A stretch of 36,396 nt of DNA from a virus: positions 1 to 36,396 of IMG/VR virus record IMGVR_UViG_3300045930_000120; one strand, given 5' to 3'. A program made the translations under genes and the position numbers. How positions within the stretch are numbered: position 1 is the first letter of the stretch; the number at the start of each line of letters is the position of its first letter. Of the stretch, positions 1,770-36,170 are shown in pieces. Under the pieces are notes generated by a model. It made no database searches. It saw only the letters and a program-made list of their open reading frames with translations, and had not been told where the DNA came from.

Positions 1770-1891
1770 ATAAACGCGCTTGTCGTGTGACCAAAATTAT
1801 GTTTATGGTGGACGATTGGCTGGGCAAAATCCGCCAAATCCAGTCCAGCCAAGTTTTAGTCAAGCGTTCTATGGTTGGGAGGTTTTGAGTT

Positions 1892-2905
1892 ATGGCGAGC
1901 ATACGCACCAAGGGGAAAACCCTTTCCGCAATTCCTGTCGATGATAACAAGGCGGTCGGCACCGTTTCGCTCAATGAACTTGAGCATTTCGGCATCAAGT
2001 CGCCGGCCTTTATGGCTAAGACCAGCGAAAAGCAGCTGGAAAAACAGGATCTGCCGTTCAAAAAACTGCGGCAGATCGTGCAGCGTGTTTGGGATAAGTC
2101 CCGCCATACGCGGGCTGATCTCTATAAGGTCTATATCGGCCGTCTCTATGACAGCACCGTGCTTGGCGATACGCCGCCGATCACGCTCTACGTGCCCGAA
2201 CTGGGCACGCCCGGCGATCAGGTAATCGAGTTCGCCTACAACGCTCCGGTCATCGCAATCGACGGCGAAACCCAGCTTGAGGCACGTTTCCGTCTGCGCG
2301 ACGAGAACGAAGAAACCGGCGACATGCCGTTCGCCGTCACCATGCATCACGGCATCTCGGAGGATCATGCGATGAAGATCCTCCACGACTACAATCACTA
2401 CGCCAAACCGATTCCGGAATCGAAACTCGGCACCAAGAATATCGATGGGCCGATGTCGATTGCCATTCACGACGCCATCAAGCAGGCCGGCATGGCGCAA
2501 TCGGATCTCAATCTGACCGGCTCAATTGCCAACAAGAAGACCATTGCCGCATTCAACCAGGCTATGGCGTTTATCGCCGGATACGCTGCCGGACCCATGG
2601 CGCTCAAGCGCACTGCGACCAGCTGGTATAGCGGGCTGAATAGCGCCGGCAATGCAGCCATCAACGGCACCTGCGTGCCGTCGTTGTCCGATCTGTTTGT
2701 CACCGCAAGCAAGCGCAAGGAGATCGGTTCGGCACAGCCGATGCTGTGGCAGGTCGCAGGCGTGCTGGCTGGTGAAGGCCACAAGCCGAGCACCGTGAAC
2801 TGGGATGCCGCCTTGCAGACCTACGTGGCGACCTCGCCGAAACAGGCCGGCAAGTCAAAAGTATCGGACCGCCTGCAGGCGGTCTACGACGCAATGGCCA
2901 GCTAA
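1892..2905 (+). CDS. divergent DGQHR/DndB-like protein
   Basis: A 337-residue protein. Residues about 118-180 have the layout of the DGQHR domain seen in DndB-type proteins: a beta strand ending in AIDGETQLEARFRL at about 122-135, then a helix-rich stretch with DYNHYAKPIPESKL at about 166-179, where the family has a conserved D/N-x-N followed by K-P/S. The diagnostic Gln-His-Arg of DGQHR is replaced by Glu-Thr-Gln. It is therefore either a diverged member that has lost that function or a protein of similar fold. GGGAGG lies nine bases before the ATG. It directly precedes a ParB-like gene in the same orientation, and the DGQHR fold has been related to ParB N-terminal domains. No dnd modification genes are visible here, so DNA sulfur regulation is unlikely; the role is unknown. 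Confidence 0.5.
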   Translation: MASIRTKGKTLSAIPVDDNKAVGTVSLNELEHFGIKSPAFMAKTSEKQLEKQDLPFKKLRQIVQRVWDKSRHTRADLYKVYIGRLYDSTVLGDTPPITLYVPELGTPGDQVIEFAYNAPVIAIDGETQLEARFRLRDENEETGDMPFAVTMHHGISEDHAMKILHDYNHYAKPIPESKLGTKNIDGPMSIAIHDAIKQAGMAQSDLNLTGSIANKKTIAAFNQAMAFIAGYAAGPMALKRTATSWYSGLNSAGNAAINGTCVPSLSDLFVTASKRKEIGSAQPMLWQVAGVLAGEGHKPSTVNWDAALQTYVATSPKQAGKSKVSDRLQAVYDAMAS

Positions 2906-2983
2906 CAAGCGAACCGTATTCGATCAACGTCAGGATGGCGGCGCAACTTTTGCCGCTGTCCTGATTTGCCCCGAGGGAGACCC

Positions 2984-3997
2984 ATGAATAGCAGAACCGA
3001 CATTGAAACCCGGCAGGGACAGATCGGCGTCGACTTTTCCATGCAGACGTTCCAGCGCAGCGGCGATGCCCGCTCCGCGCCGATCAACATCACCAAGGTG
3101 CTGGTGGACCGCATCGAGGTGGGCAAGCGCAAGCGCAAGACCGATGACAGCACCGTCGCCGCCTTGCAGGCGGATATCCGCGCCATCGGGCTGCTGCAAC
3201 CGATCGGACTGCGCCGCCAGAAGGACAGCCCCGATTACGACCTGATCTGGGGCCTGCATCGGTTCCTCGCTTTCAAGCGCGGCTGGGAGAATGCCCAGCG
3301 GCTTCTGGCGGAACGCGGTGACCGGGATCAAGAGGCGCTGGACGAGGCAAAGCTCTGGCAGCAGGTGCCGGCCGTCGTCCATGACTGGATGCCCAACGCC
3401 GACGCCGAGATGAAGGAGATCAGCGAAAACCTGCACCGTAAGGAGCTGTCGCCCAATGAAGCGAAAATCCAGCGGGCCAGGTATGTGTTGCTTTTGAAAA
3501 AGCTGGGCGAAGTGATCCCTGCTGATGAAAAGCGCTCGGATAATGCCAGCAATCAATATTCCGGCAAGAAGAAAGAGGGTGGCGAAAGTGACTTGCGTCA
3601 CCCTCCCAAAGAAACGGCGACCGAGAAAGCAGCAAAGGATCTCGGTGTTACTTCAACAACAATCAGGAATGACTTCCAGGCCGTTTCCAAGATGGCGAGC
3701 GCGGTTGCGCGCGAAACCGATGCACCGCCGGTCAAGGTGACGCCGGAAAGCCCGGCGGAGAAAATCGAGGAGGCGGTCGAACTGGCGAAACTGGCGTCGG
3801 ACGAAAAGGTGCCGGTCACCAAAACCGAAGCGCACATGACCATTGTACGCGTCGATGTCACCGATCCGAAGCAGCTACTGGCATGGTTCAGGGAACGGCT
3901 GGACGACGCCAGGAAGCCGATGACGATCGCTTATCTGCGCGAATTGCATCGTGGCATCAGTCAACTGATCGACGAGGCGACTGGGCGCATTCGCTGA
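2984..3997 (+). CDS. ParB-like DNA-binding protein
   Basis: A 337-residue protein with a ParB/Spo0J N-terminal domain. IGLLQPIGLR (about 68-77) and IWGLHRFLAFKRGW (88-101) correspond to ParB box I with its G-x-H/R-R element. ENLHRKELSPNEA (148-160) corresponds to box II. A helix-turn-helix-like segment follows at about 211-236 (KAAKDLGVTSTTIRND). The C-terminus is charged, as in ParB dimerisation regions, but not clearly homologous. I chose ATG 2984, with GAGGGAGA upstream, over an upstream in-frame TTG. No ParA ATPase is present, so this is not a standard partition pair; regulation, an accessory partition role or DNA bridging are alternatives. Two long perfect inverted repeats begin seven bases after its stop and are candidate binding sites. 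Confidence 0.8.
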   Translation: MNSRTDIETRQGQIGVDFSMQTFQRSGDARSAPINITKVLVDRIEVGKRKRKTDDSTVAALQADIRAIGLLQPIGLRRQKDSPDYDLIWGLHRFLAFKRGWENAQRLLAERGDRDQEALDEAKLWQQVPAVVHDWMPNADAEMKEISENLHRKELSPNEAKIQRARYVLLLKKLGEVIPADEKRSDNASNQYSGKKKEGGESDLRHPPKETATEKAAKDLGVTSTTIRNDFQAVSKMASAVARETDAPPVKVTPESPAEKIEEAVELAKLASDEKVPVTKTEAHMTIVRVDVTDPKQLLAWFRERLDDARKPMTIAYLRELHRGISQLIDEATGRIR

Positions 3998-4004
3998 CAA
4001 GAGA

Positions 4005-4045
4005 TCGCATGGCGGGCGGGAGAACGGCGCATAGCCGCCATGCGA
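4005..4045. repeat. 11-bp perfect inverted repeat after the ParB-like gene
   Basis: TCGCATGGCGG (4005-4015) is the exact reverse complement of CCGCCATGCGA (4035-4045), separated by 19 bases. It starts seven bases after the ParB-like stop codon and is directly abutted by a second long inverted repeat. As RNA it would be a stable 3'-UTR hairpin; as DNA it is a candidate protein-binding or cruciform site. There is no T run, so it is not a terminator by itself. Confidence 0.65.
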
Positions 4046-4088
4046 GTGCAGGGATGGATATTTGTCGCCGCGTTGTCCGTCCCTGCAC
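4046..4088. repeat. 13-bp inverted repeat abutting the previous one
   Basis: GTGCAGGGATGGA (4046-4058) pairs with TCCGTCCCTGCAC (4076-4088), 13 pairs with one G-T wobble, around a 17-base loop. It begins at the base immediately after the first inverted repeat ends. A normal terminator follows at 4098, making three hairpins in a row. That is more than transcription termination needs. Confidence 0.65.
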
Positions 4089-4097
4089 CCCCAATAG

Positions 4098-4122
4098 CCC
4101 GGCTTCGGCCGGGTTCTTTTTT
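4098..4122 (+). terminator. intrinsic terminator of the ParB-like transcript
   Basis: Perfect stem CCCGGC (4098-4103), TTCG loop, GCCGGG (4108-4113), followed by TTCTTTTTT. This is a textbook Rho-independent terminator on the plus strand, 100 bases after the ParB-like stop codon. Confidence 0.9.
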
Positions 4123-4564: not shown

Positions 4565-4670
4565 GGACGTACTGGTATCGCTGCGGATTAACAACCGCAG
4601 AACCTCTCTCGGAGATGGTTCGCTGCTAAGGTCGGCGACCATGGGTTCGAATCCCATCCAGTCATGTCCA
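4565..4670 (+). ncRNA. tRNA-like structured element
   Basis: The 3' part is a textbook T-arm: ATGGG (4641-4645), loop TTCGAAT (4646-4652), CCCAT (4653-4657). It is followed by an acceptor-like strand ending in TCCA (4667-4670). GGACGTACTGG (4565-4575) pairs with 4658-4669 over 11 bp, with one bulged C. Inside are CTGCGG/CCGCAG (4581-4586, 4595-4600), AACCTCTC with GAGA-T-GGTT (4601-4608, 4612-4620) and GGTC/GACC (4630-4633, 4637-4640). The second internal hairpin has a three-base loop, not a seven-base anticodon loop, so it is not a normal tRNA. CATGATT (4515-4521) can pair with the same 3' strand instead. It could be a decayed type II tRNA, a tRNA mimic, or an attP carrying the 3' end of a host tRNA. 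The 3' end stops four bases from the minus-strand operon. Confidence 0.45.
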
Positions 4671-4674
4671 TTTC

Positions 4675-4866
4675 CTAGACGGCAATTCCGAGCAGCGGCA
4701 GCGCCCGCAGCAGGATCACCAGCACGGCGATCACCAGGATGATGGCGCGGGCGATCTGCTTGAAATTGGCCTCCAGCGGCAGCAGTTCGACGCAGTAGAT
4801 GATGATCCACGCAACGAGGCCGACCACCAGCACCACGATCAGCAGCGAAATCAGAGCTTCAATCAT
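4675..4866 (-). CDS. small two-helix membrane protein (Thivi_2564-like)
   Basis: A 63-residue, almost entirely hydrophobic protein with two membrane segments (about 4-25 and 38-60) around a short loop ELLPLEANFKQIA. The pattern matches the small Thivi_2564-type membrane proteins common in proteobacteria and phages. It is the last gene of the long minus-strand late operon and its start overlaps the previous stop as ATGA. A holin role is possible from size, topology and operon position, but the endolysin gene is about 22 kb away, so I keep the call general. Confidence 0.7.
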   Translation of the reverse strand: MIEALISLLIVVLVVGLVAWIIIYCVELLPLEANFKQIARAIILVIAVLVILLRALPLLGIAV

Positions 4867-19301: not shown

Positions 19302-19643
19302 TTACGCCAGCGCCGGATCCCGCCAGCGATGCAGCAAAGCGGTCACTTCCGGCGTCAAGTAGCCCATGGCAACGTTCGGGTTGTCATGTTCGCCGCCGGC
19401 ACGGTCGTCATAGAGCTTCGACAGGATCAGCTCGATCGCCGCTGCCACGTCGTCCGGCACCGTGACGTCGGTCCAGTCGACGATGGACGGATCCTCGGGA
19501 TCAATCGTGCCGACGGTTTTCTTGATGTAGACAAGCGCGATGGCCGAAGCCTGGGCGATCTTGCGGGTGATGTCGGCATCGTCGTCGGTGTGATCCACTC
19601 TGAGGTGGCTCTTAGCGACATCAAGGGTGAGCAGCGCGACCAT
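19302..19643 (-). CDS. head-tail connector protein (HK97 gp6-like)
   Basis: A 113-residue helical protein: LTLDVAKSHLRVDHTDDDAD (about 6-25) is the characteristic start of the gp6-like/QLRG connector family, followed by helices ITRKIAQASAIALVYI and DDVAAAIELILSKLYDDRAG (about 63-82). Members form a ring under the portal. It lies downstream of the portal and the collagen-like gene and upstream of the joining protein. Confidence 0.88.
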   Translation of the reverse strand: MVALLTLDVAKSHLRVDHTDDDADITRKIAQASAIALVYIKKTVGTIDPEDPSIVDWTDVTVPDDVAAAIELILSKLYDDRAGGEHDNPNVAMGYLTPEVTALLHRWRDPALA

Positions 19644-19650
19644 TGCACGC

Positions 19651-20187
19651 TCACCTTCTCACCGAGCGGCCTTCCTTGACCGCCAGTGTCCAGTCTTTCG
19701 AACCATAGCCCGGCTTCTCGTCAGTGTCGGTATTGCAGTGATACGTCGATCCGCCGAACGTCACCATGTCGCCGCGCTGGTAGCTTTTCTCGGCCCGGTA
19801 GATGTCGCGATAGATCGGCACCGGGAAGGTGAAACGGTATTCCTTGACATCATCACCGCGCGTGAACTTCAGCGTGAGGGTTCGCTCGCCGTCGTGCTCG
19901 ACCGAGAAGTCCGTAAGGTTGAATCCGTCGCGGCCGTCCTTGCCATTCTCGCCGGGAAATCCGCGTGGGCCGGAATCCCCGCGATCTCCAGGCAGGCCGT
20001 CCCGTCCGTCGCGGCCGACTTCGCCTCTCTCGCCCCTATCGCCAACGGGGCCGGGATCGCCTTTCTCCCCTTTCTCGCCGCGTTCCGGCTTACGCTCCTC
20101 CAGCACCTTCAGCCGATCAGCCAACGCCCGCAGTGGCCGATCGATAGCATCGAGGATGGCGTCGACCATTTTGGAAACGTCAAGCAT
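19651..20187 (-). CDS. collagen-like protein with carbohydrate-binding-like C-terminus
   Basis: A 178-residue protein from ATG 20187 (AAAGGTGGG upstream), overlapping the portal stop by eight bases. An N-terminal helix (1-30) leads into about 15 Gly-X-Y triplets ([20 protein letters not shown] and onward, to about 88). A beta domain follows ([20 protein letters not shown]) and a C-terminal segment [20 protein letters not shown] with later W, resembling the fold of type 5/12 chitin-binding modules. Probably a trimeric fibre on the head or portal vertex that binds cell-surface glycans. Such a gene is uncommon between portal and connector. Confidence 0.75.
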
Positions 20188-34032: not shown

Positions 34033-34559
34033 GGGACATGACTCCAGCGCTGGCCGAGCTTGATTTTGCTGATTGCCTGGAACTTGACATCGAAACGATC
34101 GGCAATTGACTTCTGCTTTTCACCCAATGCCAGGCGGCGGCGTATTTCGGCAATGTCGTCAACGCGTAAGCGTGCGTTCTTGAGCTTTCCTTCACGTGCC
34201 AGTTTAGCAAGATCCGGTCGGACTGGGTGAAGCCGTCCCTTGGCCACCGCATCCCGCATATTGTCGCTAGACGAGGCTGGTCGCAGATGGGTCGGGTTGA
34301 TGCAGGACGGCCGATCGCAGCTGTGCATTGCCACCTGACCGGCACGAAGACCGCGGAACTGCTCGCATACGTATCGATGGACATACAGGTTCTTCAGCCC
34401 GCCCACGCTGAACTTGCCATAGCCCTTGGCATTCTTTGCGCCTTGCCAGATCCAGCAATCGCCATCCTGGACGGTGCGGCTTAACAGATGCTCCAATACC
34501 TTTGCCGGCGGCAGCTTGCGTGGTTTTCTTGTGGTGAACAGGTGGAGCTGGTGGTTCAT
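34029..34559 (-). CDS. HNH homing endonuclease with C-terminal HTH
   Basis: A 176-residue protein: HNH_3 core DCWIWQGAKNAKGYGKFSVG (about 34-53), LYVHRYVCEQFRG and AMHSCDRPSCINPTHLRPAS (about 77-96), then a Lys/Arg-rich linker and a helix-turn-helix DIAEIRRRLALGEKQKSIA with RFDVKFQAISKI. Its first residues MNHQLHLFTTRKP resemble those of the downstream nuclease (MNQLSFFRMRKP), and both junctions are ATGA, so it fits seamlessly into the operon. Typical free-standing homing type; not expected to be needed by the phage. Confidence 0.85.
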   Translation of the reverse strand: MNHQLHLFTTRKPRKLPPAKVLEHLLSRTVQDGDCWIWQGAKNAKGYGKFSVGGLKNLYVHRYVCEQFRGLRAGQVAMHSCDRPSCINPTHLRPASSSDNMRDAVAKGRLHPVRPDLAKLAREGKLKNARLRVDDIAEIRRRLALGEKQKSIADRFDVKFQAISKIKLGQRWSHVP

Positions 34560-35497
34560 GCCGTGGCCACCTCGGCAAACAGCGGCAGGTCATTGACAAT
34601 GCGCGATTGCGCCATCGCGGCATAGGTTGGATTCAGCTCGATCAGGATGGCGTTGCGGCCGAGTCGGTCGGCGACCAGCCCGGTGGTGCCGCTGCCGCCG
34701 AACGGATCGAGCACGATGCCGCCTTTCGGACAGCCGGCCAGGATGCACGGCTCGACCAATGCCGGCGGAAAGGTAGCGAAGTGCGCGTCGGCAAACGGGA
34801 AAGACGGGATTGTCCAAACGTTGCGGCGGTTGCGGGTTTCGCGCGGCCCGATCAGATGCAGATTGTCATGCGTGCTTCGCGGGAATATTCCGTCGCCGAT
34901 ACCTTTGAGCGGTCGGACGTTATTCGGCCCGTCCGGATAATTGGCTTCCTCCGCAATCGCCTCGGCGTCGTAGAAGTAGCGTTCGCTCTTGGCCAGCAGC
35001 CAGATCTTCTCATGGCTGGATGTCGGCCGGTCGCGCACCGATTCCGGCATCGGGTTCGGCTTATGCCAGATGATCTCCGAGCGCACCCACCAGCCCGCAT
35101 CTTGAAGCGCAATGGCCAGCCGGTTCGGCACCATGCACAGGTCTTTGGGTTTGAGCACGCCGCCGATGGTGCCGAACGGCTTGTCGCGAAAGGTGCGGTC
35201 GTCGTCGCCCTTCAGTTTGGTGTCATGCGCTGAGCGACCATTGATCTGCGCAGCGTAGCTGTCGCCGTAATTAATCCAAGCTGTGCCGGTCTTTTTCAGC
35301 AACCGTTTGGCCGCTTCGAAGACGTCCACCATGACGGCGATATGCTCGCCCAGTGTCGGCTCGAGGCCAAGCTGTCCCGGCACGCCATAATCGCGCAGCC
35401 CCCAATACGGCGGCGAGGTGACGATGCAGTCGACGCTCTCGGCCGGCATGGCGCGCATGACGTCGCGGCAGTCGCCGGTCAAGACGCGCACGCTCAT
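34556..35497 (-). CDS. site-specific DNA methyltransferase (beta-type order)
   Basis: A 313-residue amino-methyltransferase. Motif IV TSPPYW (27-32) comes first, preceded by GDCRDVMRAMP. The SAM-binding motif I DPFGGSGTTG (264-273) and motif X-like NAILIELNPTYAAMAQSR (283 onward) are at the end, the circularly permuted beta order, as in CcrM and many N4-C and N6-A enzymes. EKIWLLAKSERYFYDAEAI in the middle is typical of phage orphan methyltransferases. No partner restriction gene is present, so it likely protects phage DNA or alters gene regulation. The target sequence cannot be read from the protein. It neighbours a GcrA-like gene, and GcrA works at methylated GANTC. Confidence 0.9.
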   Translation of the reverse strand: MSVRVLTGDCRDVMRAMPAESVDCIVTSPPYWGLRDYGVPGQLGLEPTLGEHIAVMVDVFEAAKRLLKKTGTAWINYGDSYAAQINGRSAHDTKLKGDDDRTFRDKPFGTIGGVLKPKDLCMVPNRLAIALQDAGWWVRSEIIWHKPNPMPESVRDRPTSSHEKIWLLAKSERYFYDAEAIAEEANYPDGPNNVRPLKGIGDGIFPRSTHDNLHLIGPRETRNRRNVWTIPSFPFADAHFATFPPALVEPCILAGCPKGGIVLDPFGGSGTTGLVADRLGRNAILIELNPTYAAMAQSRIVNDLPLFAEVATA

Positions 35498-35667
35498 GCC
35501 GACCCTCCTGGTTGCTCAGGACGCGGCGGAAAATGATCCTTGGCGTAGCGGTGTTTCCAGTATTCAAGTTCCTTGCGCAGCCGTTCGATCTCGTCGGCGG
35601 CAGCGGCGGCATACGGATAGCCTAGCCCTGCGTGTAGCTGCCGCAGTATCTCCACGATGTCGCTCAC
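35494..35667 (-). CDS. small helical early protein
   Basis: A 57-residue protein from GTG 35667, which overlaps the gcrA-like stop as GTGA and has GGGAGG six bases upstream; the longer open frame is shadow. It consists of two helices: SDIVEILRQLHAGLGYPYAA and ADEIERLRKELEYWKHRYAK, the second heptad-like. Proteins of this shape (a DIVERLR-like start) are common small phage ORFs. Function unknown. Confidence 0.65.
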   Translation of the reverse strand: MSDIVEILRQLHAGLGYPYAAAAADEIERLRKELEYWKHRYAKDHFPPRPEQPGGSA

Positions 35668-36170
35668 CCGCTGCCTCCCGCCCGCGATTTGGCCCGGTGA
35701 TAGTCGCAGTAGGAATTGCCGAATTCTGTCGATGCCCCACAAAAGAGATATCCCCCGACGACTGCCGCCTCAGACTCAGGCCAGCGGCATTGATTGGCGC
35801 CGAGGTTCATGATCGGCACCAGAAGCATATGCGGCTTGGCCGCCGGTTTGGCCTTCTCCGCCCACGCCTTTTTCCGCCCCTCGCGCTCTTCCCAGGCGCC
35901 CCAGTCGGCGGTGACCTTTTTGGCCGACGGCGGATCCTGGATTTCAGGTGGTGCCACGATGGGTTTCCGTGCCGGCTTGTATTTCTTGCGCCGCGGCCGC
36001 TCGGCCGCGCACTTGTCTGTCCACAGCTTGTTCAACTGCTCGTCGCGGTGCAGGCGGCCCAGCACGGCGTTCTTCGACAGCCCGAAGACGACCGAAATGG
36101 CGCGCGCATTGCAGCCGGCCGACACCAGCTGCGCGACAAGGTCAGGGTTCCATTGCGGCGTCTGCTGCAT
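35664..36170 (-). CDS. GcrA-like cell cycle regulator homologue
   Basis: A 168-residue protein with GGAGGGG four bases before the ATG. N-terminal WNPDLVAQLVSAGCNARAIS then VVFGLSKNAVLGRLHR (7-42) matches the GcrA DNA-binding helix-turn-helix. The middle is Lys/Arg/Pro-rich. The C-terminal NQCRWPESEA (about 125-134) and YLFCGASTEFGNSYCDYHRA (about 141-160) match the GcrA end domain. In Caulobacter, GcrA binds sigma70-RNA polymerase and activates promoters with methylated GANTC sites. Here it is the first gene of the leftward operon. It may steer host or phage transcription. The N-terminal HTH carries AVLGRLH where hosts have AVIGKVH, a conservative change. Confidence 0.85.
   Translation of the reverse strand: MQQTPQWNPDLVAQLVSAGCNARAISVVFGLSKNAVLGRLHRDEQLNKLWTDKCAAERPRRKKYKPARKPIVAPPEIQDPPSAKKVTADWGAWEEREGRKKAWAEKAKPAAKPHMLLVPIMNLGANQCRWPESEAAVVGGYLFCGASTEFGNSYCDYHRAKSRAGGSG

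Follow-up and report, generated by a model that had tools for sequence, protein, structure and literature searches.

Introduction

Orphan proteins of the ParB fold are common and abundant on mobile elements; hardly any of their sites or partners are known (PMC12704722). DndB is a palindrome-binding repressor of dnd operons (PMC4507180) that acts in an ATP-dependent manner (PMC4507180, PMC12704722), and a DndB-like protein has been found to bind ATP and GTP (PMC12704722). In plasmid RK2, the clamp and repressor KorB acts with KorA in long-range silencing (PMC11790492), and in Bacillus subtilis the site parS-359 is located within the parB gene (PMC4442127). Here we describe two neighboring genes of IMGVR_UViG_3300045930_000120, a virus record of 36,396 bp from a temperate tailed phage (the window, in what follows, is this whole stretch of DNA). 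They encode a putative DndB/DGQHR-like protein, P0001, and a putative orphan ParB-like protein, P0002, and a 31-bp palindrome lies inside the second gene. The pair recurs in a second phage, IMGVR_UViG_3300018476_000014 (67,551 bp; G001), and we tentatively interpret it as a ParA-less regulatory cassette. What is new is an orphan-ParB variant whose partner is unusual and whose gene embeds a candidate site. The central features of the window are the following:

1892..2905, + strand: DndB/DGQHR-like gene P0001, 337 amino acids (aa), with the pair Q64R65, the signature D124-G-E-T-Q128 and H165-D-Y-N168
2984..3997, + strand: orphan ParB-like gene P0002, 337 aa, after a gap of 78 bp from P0001
3575..3605, no strand assigned: 31-bp palindrome GAGGGTGGCGAAAGTGACTTGCGTCACCCTC with 13/15 pairs, a candidate nucleation or operator site in linker-coding DNA just before the helix-turn-helix (HTH)

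P0002 resembles the orphan ParB-CTPase-fold proteins of phages and plasmids (PMC12704722) in its ParB_N domain with Boxes I, II and III, in lacking both a ParA neighbor and a ParA-binding motif, and in its location on mobile DNA. It differs from them in being paired with a DndB-like gene of the ParB/Srx superfamily and in the position-locked palindrome within its gene. With Spo0J/ParB and parS-359 of B. subtilis the locus shares a palindromic candidate site inside a parB-like coding sequence; however, the candidate 31-bp palindrome differs in sequence between the two phages, and there is no ParA. The likeness to KorB and KorA is that a ParB-type protein would, as proposed, work at promoters together with another DNA-binding protein, although the partner is here DndB-like rather than KorA-like and no repeated operators were found in the window. 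Compared with operators of the KorB type, G001 has two exact sites, one of them at a divergent promoter, and the window has a single site.

P0001 shares with DndB (PF14072) the QR pair, the DGxTQ/DGQHR region and an HDxN motif, and DndB offers a precedent for regulators that bind dyads. In contrast to DndB, the cassette carries a DGETQ signature, P0001 falls below PF14072 detection, and dndC is missing from both records: the corresponding profile (TIGR03183) found none at E<=1 in either of them (dndD and dndE were not separately searched). The DndB operator TACGN10CGTA is likewise absent and, with neither dndC nor this operator present, control of a dnd modification was rejected. A similar gene order is found in the Microcystis phage Mvi-Yong1342-1 (PP496355, locus L004 3189-4711), where a DGQHR-domain gene stands directly before a ParB-like gene, overlapping its start, and a replication protein follows; the DGQHR and ParB-like genes are both annotated as hypothetical. 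However, this DGQHR protein has no detectable relation to P0001, and the ParB-like gene contains no intragenic palindrome (best 11/15 pairs).

The DndB-Like Protein

The original prediction had described P0001 as having a DndB/DGQHR layout with the signature changed to DGETQL, and the letters IDGETQL are indeed present in the open reading frame at 1892-2905. The PF14072 profile gave no match at E<=10 in either phage, nor did the profile of the DGQHR domain (TIGR03187), the pentapeptide DGQHR being replaced by DGETQ in both phages. A tblastn search of P0001 against 7.3 Gb of plasmid sequence returned one match (E=7e-4), a Streptomyces avidinii protein annotated as DndB, which passes PF14072 (50.9 bits against a cut-off of 29.1) and bears the identical letters DGETQ. 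When the profile of P0001 and its G001 homologue was aligned with this protein by hhalign, the probability was 95.5% over 163 columns, DGETQ included. The DndB layout is thus upheld by way of an intermediate and not by a direct profile match.

Other relatives carry DAETQ (Nocardiopsis) or DGQTQ (Sinorhizobium), and all five aligned sequences preserve the Q of the QR pair together with D-x-x-T-Q and the D-x-N motif. Of the QR pair and the FxxxN motif defined in PMC4619093, P0001 has the former as Q64R65 and retains the N of the latter in HDYN168, with L replacing F. DGETQ is thus a subgroup mark rather than a private mutation, and to call the signature "changed" was partly misleading, given the same letters in a PF14072-positive DndB of a Streptomyces plasmid. 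Judged from these alignments, P0001 is a divergent DndB/DGQHR relative. As it lacks the arginine of DGQHR and that of the ParB Box II GxxR, use of a nucleotide is not to be assumed for it.

On the S. avidinii plasmid NZ_CP108617, the DGETQ DndB-like gene is found near both ends of the linear molecule, in opposite orientation and with identical scores, as if the plasmid had terminal inverted repeats; it adjoins an XRE regulator. The DGQTQ DndB-like protein of Sinorhizobium americanum plasmid B (locus L011 5677-7167) is annotated as hypothetical, and its gene is a few kb away from a queCDE/DpdB cluster for 7-deazaguanine DNA modification that has a DGQHR protein of its own.

The ParB-Like Protein

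P0002 matched the Pfam family ParB_N (PF02195) at E=1.1e-6 with 29.0 bits, above the gathering score of 26.3, as did its G001 homologue with 26.6 bits, and it matched PHROG 3264 ("ParB-like partition protein") at E=8.7e-22. The full-length ParB model TIGR00180 was not reached (20.8 against 58.45 bits). Box I (LQADIRAIGLLQP, with the core GLLQP of the C motif), Box II (GLHRFLA, GxxR) and Box III (ENLHRKELSPNE, with ENLHRKEL for ENxxR) align with the structure chains of Noc and Spo0J. Box III is followed by a linker, a weak HTH-like segment and a conserved C-terminal domain:

3617..3688, + strand: HTH-like segment of P0002 (aa 212-235), Pfam HTH_DeoR at E=0.01, below the cut-off, in a region conserved in G001

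No ParA-type ATPase (AAA_31) was detected at E<=1 in the 36.4-kb record or in G001, all 14 of the 14 control genomes being positive, and the ParA-binding motif (L/F/I)G(K/R)G(L/F/I), as defined in PMC12704722, is absent from both ParB-like proteins. The ParB domain and the missing ParA had both been predicted correctly. On the features tested, P0002 can be classed as a member of the ParB superfamily that is not part of a ParABS system.

These features bear on partition or maintenance of a non-integrated phage state, ParA-less or with the ParA of the host, in which the palindrome would be the centromere. Such a function would be in keeping with the ParB Boxes I-III and with the single, parS-like palindrome of the parB-like gene. 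We nevertheless regard it as highly improbable, as the window phage has an integrase, neither record has a ParA, the ParA-binding motif is missing, and the replication module of G001 is of the lytic type.

The Gene Pair in a Second Phage

Relatives were sought by scans of 2.9 million viral contigs, which yielded one other pair, that of G001. Its two proteins are 65 and 56% identical to P0001 and P0002, respectively, the gene order is kept, and the gap measures 87 bp; the co-occurrence that the original prediction had proposed to check is thereby borne out in a second phage. Protein and pattern scans of viral and genome contigs gave no relatives besides G001, and phage and plasmid collections gave distant matches only. 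Codon positions 1 and 2 are better kept than position 3 (74, 81 and 49% identity at positions 1, 2 and 3 between P0001 and its homologue), and both cassette genes are by this measure under purifying selection.

Gly-rich tail repeats aside, the two genomes show no clear homology outside the pair. G001 differs from the window phage in portal, head and terminase and in its module of DNA polymerase A and an SNF2 helicase, and it appears to be podovirus-like. As the sole clear homology of two otherwise different phages, the pair can be taken to move as a cassette. In G001 it is situated directly 5' of the DNA polymerase gene; this gene is split across the ends of the contig, from which we infer that the contig is circularly permuted.

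The origin of phage lambda is located inside the initiator gene O. By analogy, the pair could be a replication-initiation module with the intragenic palindrome as an origin element, and the site is indeed intragenic and the G001 pair directly precedes a DNA polymerase gene. However, the palindrome is single, there are no iterons, and no helicase-loader partner adjoins the pair in the window, so that we consider this the least probable of the explanations discussed here.

The arrangement in the two phages also touches on a role in conflict between elements, in which the proteins would be NTPase or nuclease effectors of the ParB/Srx fold directed against competitors, like Osa, and not regulators. 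DNase and ATPase activities have been described for members of this fold, and the same idea has been applied to DndB (PMC10853773); moreover, a two-gene cassette common to unrelated phages, beside the integrase in the window, resembles a moron. Yet PADLOC gives no defense family, and regulation of core functions agrees better with the G001 pair, which lies in the replication module beside the DNA polymerase and whose palindrome is found again at the early/late promoter. An effector role is accordingly judged improbable.

A general pairing of DGQHR and ParB genes in phages was considered and rejected, as only 1 of 11 DGQHR loci, that of the Microcystis phage, has a ParB neighbor by motif or profile. 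In prophiGD43A-1, a 99-aa neighbor of a DGQHR locus is annotated as ParB-like.

A Palindrome Inside the parB-Like Gene

When all 31-bp palindromes of the window were ranked, the one at 3575-3605, overlooked in the original prediction, was the best and the only one with at least 13 pairs. The parB-like gene of G001 contains a 31-bp palindrome with 14/15 pairs at contig positions 1056-1086. Both centers fall on codon position 1, of codon 203 in the window (nucleotide 3590) and of codon 211 in G001, and these codons are aligned, without gaps down to the HTH. Synonymous recoding reached the observed palindrome in 1 of 400 trials for the window and in none of 400 for G001. The chance that the only such palindrome of the window should fall at the homologous position, give or take a few bases, is roughly 2e-4 (about 7 positions in 36,396).

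G001 contains the arms of its palindrome, TTCTCTGTCAC-N5-GTGACAGAGAA, in exactly two places, and no further copy was found among the 2.9 million viral contigs. The second copy of these 11-bp arms (19789-19815) is located in the divergent intergenic region that separates the early block (leftward) from the terminase/head block (rightward), 13 nucleotides (nt) upstream of the -35 element of the promoter TTGCCG-17-TATATT at 19829. The linker palindrome of G001 and its promoter copy have no G-U pairs, being fully Watson-Crick, and their sense RNA is no more stable than the antisense RNA; they therefore look like protein sites at the DNA level. In the window, no copy of the G001 motif with fewer than 8 mismatches was found.

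Two further candidates were set aside. No short operator common to both phages was found, and GTAAC, a motif seen around the cassette of G001, was insufficiently enriched and is absent from the equivalent regions of the window.

The divergent early/late intergenic region of G001 (19577-19873, locus L007) also contains ATAATGT-AAC-ACATTAT, which overlaps the rightward -10 element, and repeats of the GTAAC type; these look like further operators. Directly after the stop codon of the G001 ParB-like gene, a perfect 31-bp palindrome, GGTGTTGAGTCAGGT-G-ACCTGACTCAACACC, is present (locus L002 8203-8233), which has the 9-mer GTCACCTGA in common with the intragenic palindrome.

Hairpins Between and After the Genes

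Additional inverted repeats are found between the two genes and in the 3' untranslated region (UTR):

2929..2965, + strand: intergenic stem-loop, 15 bp including 4 G-U pairs, 7-nt loop; the G001 counterpart is at locus L002 7040-7080
4005..4045, + strand: 3' UTR inverted repeat A, 11-bp arms at 4005-4015 and 4035-4045, 19-nt spacer
4046..4088, + strand: 3' UTR inverted repeat B, 12/13-bp arms at 4046-4058 and 4076-4088, 17-nt spacer
4096..4122, + strand: intrinsic terminator AGCCCGGC-TTCG-GCCGGGTT plus CTTTTTT (stem 4096-4115 and T-run), 8 nt after the repeats

Inverted repeats with arms as long as those of A and B are expected by chance 0-2 times per window. The composite of the two repeats folds as RNA at z=-5.4, and in repeat B the single mismatched position pairs as U-G on the mRNA-sense strand. 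The predicted folding energies of the sense and antisense strands are -28.2 and -22.0 kcal/mol for hairpin B, and -25.1 and -18.3 kcal/mol for the intergenic stem-loop. Because their sense strands form G-U pairs and their antisense strands fold less stably, these stem-loops are of the RNA type, and the 3' repeats and the intergenic stem-loop are best read as elements of mRNA processing, translation or termination. The original prediction had seen tandem perfect palindromes as possible sites of the ParB-like protein. Two abutting inverted repeats do stand directly 3' of the stop codon, but spacers of 19 and 17 nt separate their arms and repeat B is matched at 12 of 13 positions; as ParB operators they were ruled out by the spacers, the U-G pair and the adjacent terminator, all of which favor RNA hairpins. 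Rfam matches in the 3' UTR (SorX, rsmX) were far below the gathering scores and were discarded.

From here it is a short step to the main alternative to a clamp or repressor, namely that the linker palindrome is a further mRNA hairpin of an operon whose position-conserved stem-loops tune translation, processing or termination, the proteins acting elsewhere. Strong stem-loops stand at three corresponding positions in the two phages (intergenic, linker and 3' end), the intergenic hairpins (W1 and G1) and the 3' hairpin (W3b) use sense-strand G-U pairs and lose 6-12 kcal/mol of stability as antisense, and the linker palindrome of the window folds as RNA at z=-4.65. However, the linker palindrome of G001 and its promoter copy, fully Watson-Crick, are equally stable as antisense, and an exact copy of the arms at a divergent promoter is expected of a DNA site bound by protein rather than of an mRNA element within a coding linker. 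Taken together, this alternative seems unlikely to us.

A Putative Clamp or Repressor with a DndB-Like Partner

The explanation that we favor, with some reserve, is a mobile two-gene phage cassette of an orphan, ParA-less ParB-type DNA clamp or repressor and a DndB-like partner. It is founded on the gene identities, the conserved pairing, the absence of ParA, the position-locked intragenic palindrome in two phages and the promoter copy in G001; from these we infer binding, use of a nucleoside triphosphate (NTP), spreading, regulation and the partnership of the two proteins. The ParB-like protein would recognize, through its HTH, the ∼31-bp palindrome within its own gene (3575-3605), possibly with the DndB-like protein, or the latter may bind there instead. 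At the palindrome the ParB-like protein would close as an NTP-dependent clamp and would spread or repress nearby. In this temperate phage the outcome would be autoregulation of the cassette, and in G001 additionally control of the early/late divergent promoter that bears the second exact arm copy, and with it the timing of early and late transcription. The DndB-like protein would serve as co-regulator or clamp partner, as KorA does for KorB, while the RNA hairpins between and after the genes, together with the terminator, would set expression.

Several observations weigh against this interpretation. Only two examples of the pair are known, P0001 has no direct match in Pfam, NCBIfam or PHROG profile searches, and its relationship to DndB is reachable through an intermediate sequence only. 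The AlphaFold models, built from a two-sequence alignment, had predicted local distance difference test (pLDDT) scores of 43 and 40, too low to allow a search by fold. The two palindromes are alike in position and size but not in sequence, which would follow if site and binder had diverged together. The window palindrome has no second copy in the record, and 2 of its 15 pairs are broken; since one of these is G-U-compatible on the sense strand, an RNA role for it can still be envisaged.

A bolder version, possible but doubtful, is a two-protein NTP switch in which the DndB-like and ParB-like proteins, both of the ParB/Srx superfamily, are partners on phage DNA. The clamp would load at the linker palindrome of its own gene and the partner would position or lock it at promoters; the gene would thus double as the centromere-like site at which its product loads, and the cassette would move between phages as a self-contained regulatory element.

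A ParA-less DNA-binding or regulatory cassette, and neither dnd control nor classical partition, had been proposed from the outset and is still the best class of explanation; for maintenance of a plasmid-like kind, no positive evidence was found. The pairing with a DndB-like gene comes with a specific candidate DNA site whose position is kept in two unrelated phages despite its differing sequence, suggesting that a site can travel within the coding sequence of its putative binder. How an orphan ParB recognizes its site, which nucleotide it uses and what its partner does thereby become directly testable with short DNA fragments.

Genomic Surroundings

The window phage encodes a terminase, a portal, a fused protease/major head protein, a tape measure and tail genes, and its early block includes a DNA methylase and a GcrA-like protein. 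The pair lies downstream of the integrase gene and on the same strand, and is followed by the two inverted repeats and the terminator. A strict promoter scan found no promoter upstream of the pair, and a relaxed pattern gave one weak candidate:

659-1729, strand shared with the pair: tyrosine integrase, identified by profile matches
1780..1809, + strand: weak sigma70-like promoter candidate TTGTCG-N18-TATGGT, 5' of the pair, relaxed pattern only

The DNA methylase (N6_N4_Mtase) gene adjoins the gene of the GcrA-like cell-cycle regulator (34556-36170, - strand), and these neighbors indicate an alphaproteobacterial host. In the early region of G001 (locus L007 11915-14598, - strand), a VWA/metallopeptidase-like DUF2201 protein is encoded beside an ATPase (phrog_1297), forming a MoxR/VWA-like pair.

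A tRNA-like remnant is present in the window at 4593-4664, with a closing stem that extends to about 4565-4676, a canonical T-arm (ATGGG-TTCGAAT-CCCAT) and an anticodon-like arm. ARAGORN reports it as tRNA-Leu(aag) at pseudogene thresholds only, the default settings giving none. The remnant is possibly an attP core matching the 3' end of a host tRNA, or a decayed tRNA; if it is read as attP, the cassette would sit between the integrase gene and attP.

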